Positions 35,162-39,707 of a stretch of 42,447 nucleotides of DNA are shown piece by piece. Origin of the DNA: Candidatus Zixiibacteriota bacterium (GTDB lineage: Bacteria > Zixibacteria > MSB-5A5 > GN15 > FEB-12); assembly GCA_020344395.1 (NCBI GenBank), contig CP070824.1, positions 2,069,502 to 2,111,948 on the forward strand. Reading direction: 5' to 3'. Under the pieces are notes generated by a model. It searched no databases, was not told the origin of the DNA, and saw nothing but the letters and a program-made list of their open reading frames with translations. A program made the position numbers and the translations under genes. Within the stretch, counting starts at the first letter, position 1, and each line of letters begins with the position of its first letter.

Positions 35162-35187
35162 AAAAAACGGCACCCTCTAATCTGCCG
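35162..35187 (-). terminator. Weak terminator overlapping the GGDEF stop codon
   Basis: Minus strand CGGCA (35183-35187) / TGCCG (35168-35172), loop of 10 nt that includes the stop, followed by TTTTTT (35167-35162). The stem is only 5 bp, so termination may be partial and the polysaccharide genes may also receive read-through. Confidence 0.45.
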
Positions 35188-36838
35188 AAATGTCCCTTTC
35201 GGCTGTGGTGTACAGTCGATAACTGTTGCGACCTGATTCCTTGGCTCCCAGCAGGGCCATATCAGCTGCGAATATAAGCTGCTCGGAATCCTGGGCGTGA
35301 TCGGGGAATACAGCTCCCCCCAGCGAGATGGTACACTCCAACTCCAGGTCGGCCGACCCGATGGAAAACCGCGATCCGGCAATCTTGCTCTGCAGTCGAT
35401 CCATGAAACGCTCACAGGTAGCCGCCCCGGCCTCCGGCATGATAATACAGAACTCGTCCCCGCCGTATCTTGCTATTATATCGATGGCCCGGATGGAACT
35501 GCGCAATATGTGCCCCATCCGTCTTATGACACTGTCACCGGCCTGGTGGCCGTAGTTATCGTTGATGCTCTTGAGATCATCCATATCGAATATGATCAGG
35601 GCCAGCGACCGCGTGTAACGTTTGGCCCGGTCTATTTCCTCCCTGAGTCGCTTACGGAAATACCGCTGATTGGCTAATCCCGTGAGACCGTCACTATATG
35701 ACAACTCATTGGCGCGTTCGAATGACTCGGCATTTTGAATGAGTGTCTCCATAGCGGCCTTGTACTCACGTAGTCTTTCGACTATCATTTTCGGAGGTCG
35801 TCCGTTTGACCAGGCCATTACAGCCGGGCGACCCGCGGTGAGCGGCAGCAGGGTGAGGTGGTTGAGTCCGGCCTCCGCAAGCTCTCTAGCGGCAGGCGTC
35901 AGTTCGGCTTCGATAGATCCCAGGCGAGCGGCCTCAATCATCTCATGGTCAGTCAGCACCGACACTATCCGGTCGAACTGCTCCGGACCAGGCGCACCGA
36001 GGTCTCCGGCGGAATCCGTCCGAACCAGCTTCGGCGCCTCGTTCTCGCCGCGTCCCCTGTAGAACAGGGCGGCTTTGTCCAGACCCACTTCGGCGTGGAT
36101 CGCTTCAAACAAAACGCGCACTACTGATTCGGAATTACGGCTGCGCACCAGTTTGAGAATCTGGTCGACGCTGCTGGTCACACCGGACCCGGAGGTCGAT
36201 CCAGCCTTCTCTAGCTGCTGGCGGACCCGGTCGAGCTTGTTTTCATGCCACTTGACGTGATAGGCAGCCGAAAGCGACTGGGCCAGCGCCGCCACCAATA
36301 CTATGAAGGAATGCTCCGATGTTCTCAAGTTCGACTTTACAAAGTATACGCCGTACAGATTATCTCGCCAGAAGATCGGGAAACAGAGGTCCAGCGAATG
36401 ACGCCGCAGCTGTTTGCGCAAACCATCAGGAATCAATTCTCCCAGCGAGTCAACCGATCGCGGCACAAAGCCATCGCATAAACCCTCAGCCAGTTCTCTG
36501 GAGTATCTGGTTCGAAAATCCTGGCGATCAAACCTCTCGATATTGTGATAATAGTTCAGCTCCAAAAAACCTCGGCGTTTCCGCAGAAAGATTATGTGCT
36601 CACAGTCAAAACTGGCCTTGAGGAGGTCAGACACCTTGCTGGCAACGATCTGTATGGCCCCTTCCAGGGAATTCGACCGCAGGAACTCACAGAACTCATC
36701 CAGGCTCAGTTTCTTGACAGCTTCATTCCGTCGCCGTTCCCTTCTGATCCTGATGTACAGGAGCCCGGCCAGCTCCAAAACTGCCGCCAGTAGCAGTAAT
36801 ATCAGTATAGAGCGGACATCCATACCCACGATAACCAC
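35177..36838 (-). CDS. GAF-like / GGDEF diguanylate cyclase
   Basis: 553 aa from the GTG at 36838 (ATG at 36823 is an alternative start). One N-terminal membrane anchor (about 8-30), two GAF-like sensor regions (about 45-190 and 230-360), and a GGDEF domain (about 385-545). It has DGLTGLANQRYFRKRL, DMDDLKSINDNYGHQAGD and RYGGDEFCIIMP, the active GGDEF signature. RAID lies five residues before GGDEF, a complete RxxD inhibitory site, so product feedback is expected. It makes cyclic di-GMP from two GTP. The polysaccharide export genes immediately downstream are the type of system that c-di-GMP often switches on; that link is inference. Confidence 0.9.
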   Translation of the reverse strand: MVIVGMDVRSILILLLLAAVLELAGLLYIRIRRERRRNEAVKKLSLDEFCEFLRSNSLEGAIQIVASKVSDLLKASFDCEHIIFLRKRRGFLELNYYHNIERFDRQDFRTRYSRELAEGLCDGFVPRSVDSLGELIPDGLRKQLRRHSLDLCFPIFWRDNLYGVYFVKSNLRTSEHSFIVLVAALAQSLSAAYHVKWHENKLDRVRQQLEKAGSTSGSGVTSSVDQILKLVRSRNSESVVRVLFEAIHAEVGLDKAALFYRGRGENEAPKLVRTDSAGDLGAPGPEQFDRIVSVLTDHEMIEAARLGSIEAELTPAARELAEAGLNHLTLLPLTAGRPAVMAWSNGRPPKMIVERLREYKAAMETLIQNAESFERANELSYSDGLTGLANQRYFRKRLREEIDRAKRYTRSLALIIFDMDDLKSINDNYGHQAGDSVIRRMGHILRSSIRAIDIIARYGGDEFCIIMPEAGAATCERFMDRLQSKIAGSRFSIGSADLELECTISLGGAVFPDHAQDSEQLIFAADMALLGAKESGRNSYRLYTTAERDISAD

Positions 36839-36862: not shown

Positions 36863-36890
36863 AATATAACAGATTAAGGCAGTGTGTCAA
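36863..36890 (-). promoter_or_regulatory. Sigma-70 promoter for the diguanylate cyclase gene
   Basis: Minus strand: consensus -35 TTGACA (36885-36890), 16-nt spacer, -10 TATATT (36863-36868). It lies between the end of the STAS -1 extension (36908) and the GTG at 36838, so the cyclase can be transcribed independently of the STAS gene. Confidence 0.6.
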
Positions 36891-36907: not shown

Positions 36908-37204
36908 CTAGCGACCCCAGGCGTACCGAAATCTGGAACGTCGCCTCAGCAATTTCTTGCGTCGCAGCACTGAAAATACCTGCCAGAACCGAATCCTGCT
37001 GCCGGCGAGATGCCTGGACGTCTCCCTGCGAATCTCCGGAATGGTCGAAAAGGGGTCCTGCTTCACGATCCTGCATATCAGCGTCTCCAGGGCTTCTTCA
37101 GCCCGGTTCGAAACCTCAGCACGGCCTGCTTGTGACCCCTGCGATTCCGACGGCTCGATTTGCGTTACAGCCTCAACGACCGTTCTGCCACCTACCGCTG
37201 ACGT
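36908..37204 (-). other. 98-codon -1 frame extension of the STAS gene (winged-helix-like)
   Basis: Directly after the A10 run (37204-37213) the -1 frame stays open for 98 codons to a TAG at 36908. The translation is protein-like: a linker TSAVGGRTVVEAVTQIEPSE, then AEEALETLICRIVKQDPFST, IPEIRRETSRHLAGSRIR and FWQVFSVLRRKKLLRRRSRF with the end RYAWGR, a pattern like a winged-helix or basic nucleic-acid-binding tail. It has no ATG or TTG start of its own and only one late internal GTG without a proper RBS. Slippage of the STAS ribosomes by -1 at AAA AAA AAA would give a 228-aa fusion. A homopolymer sequencing error (10 instead of 11 A) would give the same picture. Confidence 0.55.
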
Positions 37205-37593
37205 TTTTTTTTTGCCGGCGGCTGATCGCCTCCGCCGAATTCTCCGGCCGCCTCGCCCACTGACCCGTATGCCTGCAGCACATTGTCAAATTCGAGCAGC
37301 TCGTAGATTTCATATACGTCAGGAACCATGTTGGCAAGTTTGATGTCGCCGCCATTAGCCCTTACATCCCTTATGTGCGAGAGGAATATGCCCCAGCCGG
37401 CCGAGGAGATATAATCAACGCCGGCCAAATCAATCACGATGTTGTATCGTTCCCGCTTGAGTAGCGAACTCATGACTTCGTCGAGTTCCCCGGCGGTCAT
37501 GGTGTCGACCACTCCGTCCACCCGGACTTCAGAGACATCCTGATTTAAGGGGTTTTCCGACAGTGAGATACCAATATTGTCCATACCGTGCAA
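37192..37593 (-). CDS. STAS-domain anti-sigma factor antagonist (RsbV/SpoIIAA-like), short form
   Basis: 133 aa from a TTG at 37593 (AAGGAG four bases upstream; an ATG at 37584 is possible). STAS fold: VRVDGVVDTMTAGELDEVMS, YNIVIDLAGVDYISSAGWGI with the phosphorylatable Ser in YISSAG, FLSHIRDVRANGGDIKLAN and LEFDNVLQAYGSVGEA. The frame ends ...PPAKKKRQR just after a run of ten A (37204-37213). An SD-like GGAGG lies 15 nt upstream of that run (37229-37233). The unphosphorylated protein would be the partner of the kinase domain encoded next door, which inactivates it, while the phosphatase domain in the same protein reactivates it. Confidence 0.88.
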   Translation of the reverse strand: MHGMDNIGISLSENPLNQDVSEVRVDGVVDTMTAGELDEVMSSLLKRERYNIVIDLAGVDYISSAGWGIFLSHIRDVRANGGDIKLANMVPDVYEIYELLEFDNVLQAYGSVGEAAGEFGGGDQPPAKKKRQR

Positions 37594-37658: not shown

Positions 37659-39707
37659 TTAATCGCGCTGAGTCTCAGGATTGTCGGAAACTTTCTCAAC
37701 GCTCAGAGCAGCGGTGTCGTCTGTAGTCTCGGGGCGCGACCGGGGCTTTTCAACAGGAACACGTGCCAGGATAAAAGTGATGTCGTCGTTTTGTTTGCTG
37801 AAGCCGGAGAAGGTGTCGATTTCGTTAACGATGCCGCCAGAGACGTCCTGCAACCGCTCAGCTGAATCCCGGCCGGCTTCCCGCAGAACCAAATCAGCGA
37901 GACGATCCAGCCCGTATTGTTCTCCGCCGCGACTGGTGGCTTCCGTAATACCGTCAGTGTACAGAAGAACCAGGTCACCCGGCTGCAGACGGAGCTCCAC
38001 CTCCTGCAGAGACTCGCCAAATGAACGACCCAGAGTGGTCGGCATCCCTAACGGCATCCCTGATGGGTTGACTCTGGAAACCAGTTGCGTGCCCTGGTGA
38101 AGATGCAACAGAGGATTATGGCCGGCAGAGACAAACCTGAGCGTGCTGTCTGAGGCGTCGAAAACAGCCATGAGAACAGTGATAAACATTCCCGGAGGCA
38201 TGTTGTTCGATAAGTAGTCGTTGACAGTGATCAGGGTATCGCGCGGTGATTCACAGCCGTCCGCGAAAATCCGTATGACCGTTCGCAGCATCGACATAAC
38301 CATAGATGCCGGCACGCCCTTGCCGGACACATCGGCCACGGCCAGACAACACCGGTTTTCAGAGACCGGAAAAACATCGTAAAGGTCACCGCTGACCATA
38401 GAAGCGGCCCGGTAAAAGGCGTCAACCTCCAGTCCCGGAAGCTGAGGCAGGTTACGCGGAAGCAGAGTTTTTTGGATCTGGGAGACAAGCTCGATTTCCT
38501 TGGCCATTTTCTCGCGCTCGATTACAGTCTTGCGATCTCTGCTGACCCTGGTCATCATCTCGTTAAAAGCATGGGAGATCTCAAGGAACTCGGCGGCACC
38601 ATCAAGGGGCAGTTCGGTCTCCAGCTCGCCCGAGGAGAAACGTCTGACGCGCTGTACAATCCGGACGATTGGGGTCACAAAATAACTCGATAGCAGATAG
38701 ATGCCTATGACGCCAAACACGAGCAGAACAGATGTCAACATCCAGGATCTGCCGGCCGCCTGACCGAGGCGCGAGTCGATGAGTTCGGTCGAGTACAGCA
38801 GGTGAATCGTACCGAGTCTCCGCTCACCCCACGAGAGCGGAACCATAAGGTAGTTCAATTGCTCCCCGGCCCCATCGATGCGGCGCGCCTGCCCAAGGCT
38901 GCCCGCGGGGATTGGATAGGGCGGTACATACGGCTTTCTGATTTTATGGATATCTTCAGAGTGCGCCAGCACCATGTTAGCTGTATCGGTAATGGCTATC
39001 AGTCTTAGAAACGGATTGGATTTCTGGTAGCTGACGACAAGCCGATCAAACTCGACATCACTGCGGCGATTGGTAACATACCCGGACGCCTGGTCGGCAA
39101 TAGTGTTAGCCAGGGCCTCGGCGGTGCCGTCAAGATGCGCATACAGTTCATTGACGGTGTTCGTCCGGATATACCAGAACGCCGAAACAACAATGAGACA
39201 AACAATAGAAAAGGTCCAGAACGAAAACTTGGCGCGAAGAGTGAACATGCGACGCCACAGTCCGGGTGCGCCGCTCGGTTCGGCGGAGATCCGCTTGGTC
39301 ATGCGCAGTTCGTTAAATCCGCCCGAGGTGATATATTCGACTGAATCCATGATCTTCTGAATCATAAAGAAGCCAAGTCCGCCACGTCGACCGGTTTCGA
39401 CCAGCTTGTTAAGGTCCAACCGCCCGGTCGCATCCGGCTGAAACGAACGCCCGGTATCGATAAGGGAAAAAACAATCAGCTTCCTGTAGATGACGATACG
39501 AACTCTGAGCATCCCCTTTTCATGAAGGTAGGCATGACGCAGGATGTTGGTGACACCTTCTTCGATGGCCAGTTGTACCGAGGTCATCTGCTTGCGGCGC
39601 ATCCCGGCTGCGATGCATGCCTCCCTCACCACGCGCTGAACCGAGTCGAGGTGTCTTTCCTGGGCCGGAAACTCGGCATTTATTTCCTTGATCGGTCGAC
39701 GAAACAT
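37659..39707 (-). CDS. RsbW-like kinase / sensor / RsbU-SpoIIE-like phosphatase fusion
   Basis: 682 aa. Residues about 1-135 are an HATPase_c_2 (RsbW/SpoIIAB-like) domain: QLAIEEGVTNILRHAYLHEK (N box), FSLIDTGRSFQP and RRGGLGFFMIQKIMDSVEY (G boxes). Then a membrane helix (about 163-183), an extracytoplasmic sensor region (about 185-325), a second helix (about 328-348) and HAMP (about 350-400). The C-terminal PP2C-type phosphatase (about 430-655) has VSGDLYDVFP, VADVSGKGVPASMVMSM, FVSAGHNPLL and YTDGITEATSRGGEQYG with the metal Asp residues. A kinase domain that phosphorylates STAS and a phosphatase that removes the phosphate are in one polypeptide, with the STAS gene 65 nt downstream. No sigma factor is adjacent. 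Confidence 0.9.
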   Translation of the reverse strand: MFRRPIKEINAEFPAQERHLDSVQRVVREACIAAGMRRKQMTSVQLAIEEGVTNILRHAYLHEKGMLRVRIVIYRKLIVFSLIDTGRSFQPDATGRLDLNKLVETGRRGGLGFFMIQKIMDSVEYITSGGFNELRMTKRISAEPSGAPGLWRRMFTLRAKFSFWTFSIVCLIVVSAFWYIRTNTVNELYAHLDGTAEALANTIADQASGYVTNRRSDVEFDRLVVSYQKSNPFLRLIAITDTANMVLAHSEDIHKIRKPYVPPYPIPAGSLGQARRIDGAGEQLNYLMVPLSWGERRLGTIHLLYSTELIDSRLGQAAGRSWMLTSVLLVFGVIGIYLLSSYFVTPIVRIVQRVRRFSSGELETELPLDGAAEFLEISHAFNEMMTRVSRDRKTVIEREKMAKEIELVSQIQKTLLPRNLPQLPGLEVDAFYRAASMVSGDLYDVFPVSENRCCLAVADVSGKGVPASMVMSMLRTVIRIFADGCESPRDTLITVNDYLSNNMPPGMFITVLMAVFDASDSTLRFVSAGHNPLLHLHQGTQLVSRVNPSGMPLGMPTTLGRSFGESLQEVELRLQPGDLVLLYTDGITEATSRGGEQYGLDRLADLVLREAGRDSAERLQDVSGGIVNEIDTFSGFSKQNDDITFILARVPVEKPRSRPETTDDTAALSVEKVSDNPETQRD

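Follow-up and report, generated by a model that had tools for sequence, protein, structure and literature searches.

A run of ten A's at the end of a STAS-domain gene from the uncultured Zixibacteria is probably (about 80%, judged from comparison of related genes) a programmed RNA-polymerase slippage site of the Thermus dnaX type, through which a single gene would give both a STAS-only protein and a STAS protein with a C-terminal helix-turn-helix (HTH)-like domain. Five observations carry this reading: a run of at least nine A's is kept, the tail beyond it is kept, the alternative frames are closed, the frame has flipped repeatedly, and such runs are nearly absent elsewhere. To our knowledge, few cellular genes are known to use programmed transcriptional slippage. 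The present site is conserved over two families, an order-level branch of these bacteria, and recurs in several unrelated genes, with the DNA frame flipping freely, which makes it directly testable whether slippage rather than the DNA frame sets the product ratio. If the reading is right, a single gene would supply a partner-switching STAS protein and, linked to it in fixed ratio, a DNA-binding form. Our literature search, which lay outside most subscription papers, found no paper joining Zixibacteria and slippage.

The A run and its frames in the window

The window, by which we mean the whole 42,447-nt stretch of Candidatus Zixiibacteriota DNA analysed here, carries the gene on its minus strand (Table 1). 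The run stands in the context GGC-A10-CGTCAGCGGTAG and is read in the zero (STAS) frame as GCA AAA AAA AAA CGT CAG CGG TAG, giving a protein that ends in KKKRQR. A first-pass annotation of this DNA had placed ten A's three codons before the STAS stop and had read the -1 frame onward for 98 codons with no usable start; the sequence agrees on each count, and no ATG, GTG or TTG occurs in the tail frame of the window gene between the run and the HTH-like domain. The same annotation had predicted products of 133 and 228 aa, which is arithmetically right if translation begins at TTG 37593, but relatives begin at the equivalent of ATG 37584, from which the STAS frame is 130 aa long. It was also correct that the promoter match ahead of the cyclase gene begins after the -1 frame has ended. 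The conclusion drawn below is independent of whether the window carries A10 or A11.

Table 1 Features of the STAS/tail locus in the window, with positions counted along the window.
Feature	Position	Strand	Basis
STAS (anti-anti-sigma type) ORF	37192..37593	-	Pfam STAS 5.6e-16; TIGR00377; SpoIIAA/RsbV/TM1442 fold
A10 candidate slippery run at the STAS/tail junction	37204..37213	-	A9-A11 in 62/62 f1+f4 tail genes
Tail read in the -1 frame, a linker and an HTH-like domain; 98 codons beyond the run, with TAG at 36908-36910	36908..37213	-	Homologues in 80/99 relatives
Four-helix HTH-like part of the tail, with conserved DPF..I.E, WW and RR.RFR	36911..37102	-	AF2; Pfam HTH_Tnp_Tc3_2
TAG terminating the unslipped (zero) frame, 9 nt past the run, three codons on	37192..37194	-	Sequence
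TGA closing the third frame, 28 nt past the run	37173..37175	-	Stops at +28/+29 recur in relatives
GGAGG, 15 nt upstream of the run	37229..37233	-	Not conserved; SD-like in only 12/61 relatives
HATPase_c_2 (RsbW-like kinase)-HAMP-SpoIIE phosphatase, 682 aa, directly upstream of the STAS gene	37659..39707	-	Domain matches
GGDEF diguanylate cyclase, downstream neighbour of the STAS/tail gene	35177..36838	-	Domain matches
Sigma-70-like promoter match (11/12), TTGACA-16-TATATT, after the tail stop and ahead of the GGDEF gene	36863..36890	-	1 found vs 0.8 expected by chance

Conservation of run, tail and frame classes

With the tail protein as query, a homologue was present in 80 of 99 related genomes, an occurrence far above chance that marks the tail as a protein family; five of the 54 other genomes of the window's family (G006, G007, G012, G040 and G043) had no tail match. 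The ORF carrying the tail is 213-276 aa long in some relatives and only about 100-140 aa in others. Throughout the window's family (f1) and its sister family in the same order (f4), both Candidatus Zixiibacteriota, a run of A9-A11 sits exactly at the STAS/tail junction (62 of 62 tail genes, comprising 61 fully analysed and one, L037, at a contig edge). Tail genes from outside these two families (f2, f3 and further families of the class) lack the run in 19 of 19 cases, and in these the tail is fused to STAS in frame.

The relatives are Candidatus Zixiibacteriota/GN15 metagenome assemblies; the contig names of many are of short-read style, and several are MEGAHIT-style (k141). Runs were A10 in 53 genes, A9 in eight and A11 in one, with none below nine, and 25 of the 61 genes are in frame, 32 need -1 and four need +1; assembly from metagenomes may miscount a run by one A in single cases, and the four +1 genes and the single A9 or A11 cases are the least certain of these assignments. 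Run phases 0, 1 and 2 all occur among run-bearing STAS genes, as do both shift directions. Out-of-frame genes are mostly short of one A (32:4), in line with the extra A's carried by Thermus dnaX mRNAs (PMC5009743). On a STAS-plus-tail tree, the step between run and no run requires two changes, versus 16 for frame class within the run-bearing genes; the tree is a quick one with many weakly supported forks, and its well-supported branches alone force nine changes of the -1 label.

Two local patterns were noted within genera. L011 (G003) and L013 (G031), from one genus and with like flanks, carry A9 and A10, the former out of frame and the latter in frame, and this pair is a natural test of whether frame matters. 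Four genomes of genus g13 share one frame state.

Selection on the tail and closure of the other frames

Close pairs gave tail pN/pS values of 0.12-0.36, the out-of-frame class included, while the window's own pairs gave 0.52-0.58 and are saturated; these ratios indicate that the tail is under purifying selection even where it is out of frame. The first-pass annotation had proposed comparing related genomes for A count, tail frame and selection, and its claim emerges from that comparison unrefuted, with the run kept and selection on the tail purifying.

Both frames other than that of the tail close early. The nearer stop falls on average 9.8 nt past the run versus 23.7 +/- 3.4 nt in shuffles, and the later one 27 nt past it versus 86 +/- 9 nt (0/500 in each case, the null being 500 synonymous-codon shuffles uncorrected for shared ancestry). 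Stops at about +9/10 and +28/29 reappear across relatives even though the codons differ, and early closure is common to in-frame and out-of-frame genes; for every frame to give dual output, both non-tail frames have to be closed in all classes.

Probable transcriptional slippage and alternative explanations

In many bacteria, selection against slippage shows once an A run reaches nine (PMC1088944), and nine A's are what Thermus dnaX uses for slippage (PMC5009743). Under the mechanism that we propose, RNA polymerase would stutter on the A10 run and produce mRNAs with varying numbers of A's, mostly extra ones. One mRNA phase would give STAS alone (about 133 aa), with a stop 9-28 nt past the run, and another would give STAS, a flexible lysine linker and the C-terminal HTH-like domain (about 228 aa). 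Slippage would thus fill every frame and the DNA frame would hardly matter, which would explain why species keep the run yet differ in frame. Interrupting the run, for example by replacing it with AAGAAGAAG, would be expected to abolish slippage. We infer all three elements from sequence, namely that slippage occurs, that it takes place in transcription and what it does; the transcriptional level is favoured because runs have at least nine A's, neither phase nor direction of shift is constant, the two other frames are closed, mostly one extra A is needed, and neither a Shine-Dalgarno (SD) element nor a stem-loop accompanies the run. That one gene yields two products joined at the A run, with a DNA-binding-like tail, had been suggested from the window alone and gains support from conservation in relatives.

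Slippery heptamers are present in every run, ribosomes, too, can slip on A runs (PMC4363877), most out-of-frame genes need -1, and the window has its GGAGG 15 nt upstream of the run, all of which would suit programmed -1 ribosomal frameshifting on A_AAA_AAA or A_AAA_AAG in an unaltered mRNA, as in E. coli dnaX. We nevertheless consider this unlikely because seven A's would suffice, yet no run is shorter than nine; because +1 genes exist and the run phase varies, leaving no fixed heptamer in a fixed frame and no single direction of shift; and because both alternative frames are closed, not one. The GGAGG lies where the first-pass annotation had placed it, but the suggestion that it acts as an SD stimulator of a ribosomal -1 shift is not supported: the motif is not conserved, an SD-like element stands upstream in only 12 of 61 genes, and a scan of +3 to +60 for stem-loops gave no preference for one downstream of the run (mean z between -0.15 and -0.65). 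A pattern search for the tRNA-Lys anticodon yielded nothing usable. Translation of the tail as a separate protein, by re-initiation after the STAS stop, would be helped by the nearness of that stop to the tail frame and by the tail-frame GTG, TTG or ATG found in 14 of the 32 -1 genes. We give it little credence, since the remaining 18, the window's gene among them, have no start codon before the HTH, no out-of-frame gene has an SD before such a start, and 25 relatives, like all outgroups, have a plain fusion; across all 61 genes, a start codon with SD for the tail is absent in 60.

Changes at the level of DNA fare no better. An A10 run is mutable, frame class flips often, and the same-genus genes L011 and L013 differ in state, as would be expected if replication slippage toggled the tail between cells. 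Such phase variation is nonetheless very improbable: length is 10 in 53 of 62 runs and the change of frame is carried by the flanks, the four g13 genomes are in the same state, both other frames are closed close by, and the same kind of site occurs in the housekeeping genes coaBC and dnaX, where an off state would be harmful. A sequencing or assembly error in the homopolymer of a plain STAS-HTH fusion was the fallback that the first-pass annotation had offered, and the source genome gives some cause for it, being a single contig, only 84.8% complete, in which three A10 sites each require the same -1 shift. However, 35 genes of relatives, drawn from many assemblies, are likewise out of frame, making 36 with the window's own, and error would leave both the conserved run of at least nine A's and the closed alternative frames unexplained. 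The error reading is refuted for the clade, and overall we give it next to no chance of being correct; if the window carried A11, its gene would be in frame with the same candidate slippage site.

Domains, neighbours and likely function

The STAS domain matched TIGR00377 in 44 of 44 fused relatives and has fold matches to TM1442 (5.4e-9) and SpoIIAA (1e-8), and also to RsbV; its serine motif SSAGWG (S60 S61 A G W G) is invariant in the 44 fusions. In the AF2 model of a natural in-frame relative, STAS is followed by a disordered linker of about 40 residues that holds the lysine run and then by a four-helix HTH-like domain with pLDDT mostly above 92. The tail had been proposed to be a winged helix; the helix-turn-helix part is borne out by this model and by Pfam, but the wing is not, as the model has four helices and no strands. 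The proposed search of HMM and structure databases gave a similarly divided answer: HTH_Tnp_Tc3_2 was matched in 34 of 75 members (best 4.6e-6), with nothing beyond it in Pfam or NCBIfam, but the PDB gave no significant match by sequence or fold, only weak PadR/PerR matches with E above 1. As modelled, the tail is HTH-like and putatively DNA-binding.

A SpoIIE-type gene lies upstream within 2.5 kb in 69 of 80 related loci and a GGDEF gene downstream within 3.5 kb in 55 of 80. A GHKL kinase and a PP2C-type phosphatase adjoin the STAS gene as one HATPase_c_2-HAMP-SpoIIE protein, which is likely the regulator of the STAS domain, and this gene pair upholds the earlier suggestion of a link to a partner switch. 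The upstream protein would control phosphorylation of the conserved STAS serine; by analogy with CapS, the STAS-HTH form would be a DNA-binding regulator under its neighbouring kinase/phosphatase, and the STAS-only form may set the ratio through competition for the kinase or for dimerisation. No target promoter or cognate sigma factor was identified for STAS or STAS-HTH.

CapS is the nearest characterised protein to STAS-HTH. It is a STAS-wHTH repressor that is released from DNA when CapK phosphorylates its STAS serine (PMC13373217), and it shares with the present protein an N-terminal STAS domain with a conserved Ser, a C-terminal HTH and a neighbouring GHKL-type kinase. It differs in that no slippage site is reported for it, its wHTH is MarR/ArsR-like whereas the tail here is Tc3-HTH-like with no visible wing, and the kinase here is fused to HAMP-SpoIIE, with no immune operon seen beside the STAS-HTH gene. 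SpoIIAA and RsbV have the STAS fold, the SSAGWG serine motif and an adjoining kinase and SpoIIE phosphatase in common with the window's protein; unlike them, it would bear an HTH tail in one of its two forms and is without an identified cognate sigma factor.

As to the site itself, Thermus thermophilus dnaX (tau/gamma at A9) is alike in having 9-10 A's within a gene, early stops in the other frames and long and short products, and the same Zixibacteria clade has such a site in its own dnaX. Here, in contrast, the gene is a signalling gene, the unslipped product is long or short depending on the species, and slippage is predicted from sequence. The Chlorobium-type split dnaX, a GeneTack cluster with 10 A's, likewise has its long product in the -1 frame across A10 and was inferred to use transcriptional realignment (accessible portion of PMC3711429); gene and phylum differ, and a mix of in-frame and out-of-frame genes within one family is not described in that portion. 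In Shigella mxiE, as cited in PMC1088944, the two frames of a regulator are likewise joined by an extra mRNA base at a homopolymer, but there, according to that citation, the joined form is required, whereas the short STAS protein here is a complete domain.

Long A runs elsewhere in the genomes

Only four A10 runs occur in the 3.44 Mb of the window's own genome, at dnaX, coaBC, the STAS gene and the 5' end of mnmE. Pattern searches of 18 whole f1 and f4 genomes (60 Mb) counted 65 runs of at least ten A's in all, and 41 of these sit at STAS, coaBC or dnaX junctions, against about 0.004 if the runs were placed at random; the 41 divide into 17 in the STAS gene, 16 at the coaC/coaB junction and eight in dnaX, the last mapped only in the nine f1 genomes of the census. 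Genomes G010, G014, G063, G074 and G075 have no A10 run beyond these three genes.

At the CoaC/CoaB junction, A10 or A11 is present in 28 of 30 f1 loci (own genome G000:C1:2570910, L104; others among L187-L216 and L305-L330), with 14 in frame, 12 needing -1 and one needing +1, so that out-of-frame copies are mostly short of one A (12:1). The f4 genes also have the run and are mostly in frame, otherwise needing -1, and it is lacking in f2, f3 and other families, where the longest A run is 8. The site has the same architecture as that of the STAS gene. Coenzyme A synthesis requires CoaB. Since a single-copy coaB is out of frame in several genomes, crossing of frames must work there. Papers on coaBC and frameshifting appear, from their titles and abstracts, to be unrelated. 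In dnaX, A9 or A10 is found in 23 of 30 family genomes (own genome G000:C1:875016, L093; others among L217-L246), in frame in all but G032 (A9), and the other frames stop soon after; by analogy we take this to be a Thermus-like tau/gamma site.

On balance we favour the view that A10 slippage by RNA polymerase is a general device in these bacteria by which one gene gives a multi-domain protein both fused and unfused, with the frame across the run nearly neutral and runs almost absent elsewhere. This would cover STAS-HTH, coaBC and dnaX and, in some species, mnmE, the membrane anchor of a PP2C phosphatase and a Mg-chelatase-like pair. Gene callers will split or truncate such genes, be they essential or regulatory, or label them pseudogenes, and apparent genome completeness may drop.

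Several further runs were seen. G084 and G090, from other families (2.9-3.8 Mb), have no A10 run anywhere; long A runs are avoided in these genomes as well, which are without slippage sites. In four genera, mnmE (G000:C1:1298544, L096; G041, L288; G021, L291; G073, L343) begins with a start codon and at most a few further codons before an A10 run, after which the -1 frame continues without a start of its own. A PP2C phosphatase has A9 or A10 in the linker before its C-terminal transmembrane helix in some genera (L092 in the window's own genome, L259, L260, L264, L266, L267 and L290), and in G008 (L290) the frame stops right after the run. This could yield soluble and anchored forms; the run is not kept across the family. 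A Mg-chelatase/MoxR-like ATPase (L277, G018:C3:98825) ends KKK-stop at an A10 run, past which the -1 frame continues as a vWA-like protein. Finally, a second STAS-like match in the window's own genome (G000:C1:785945, L007) contains an internal TAG and is possibly a pseudogene or another recoded site.
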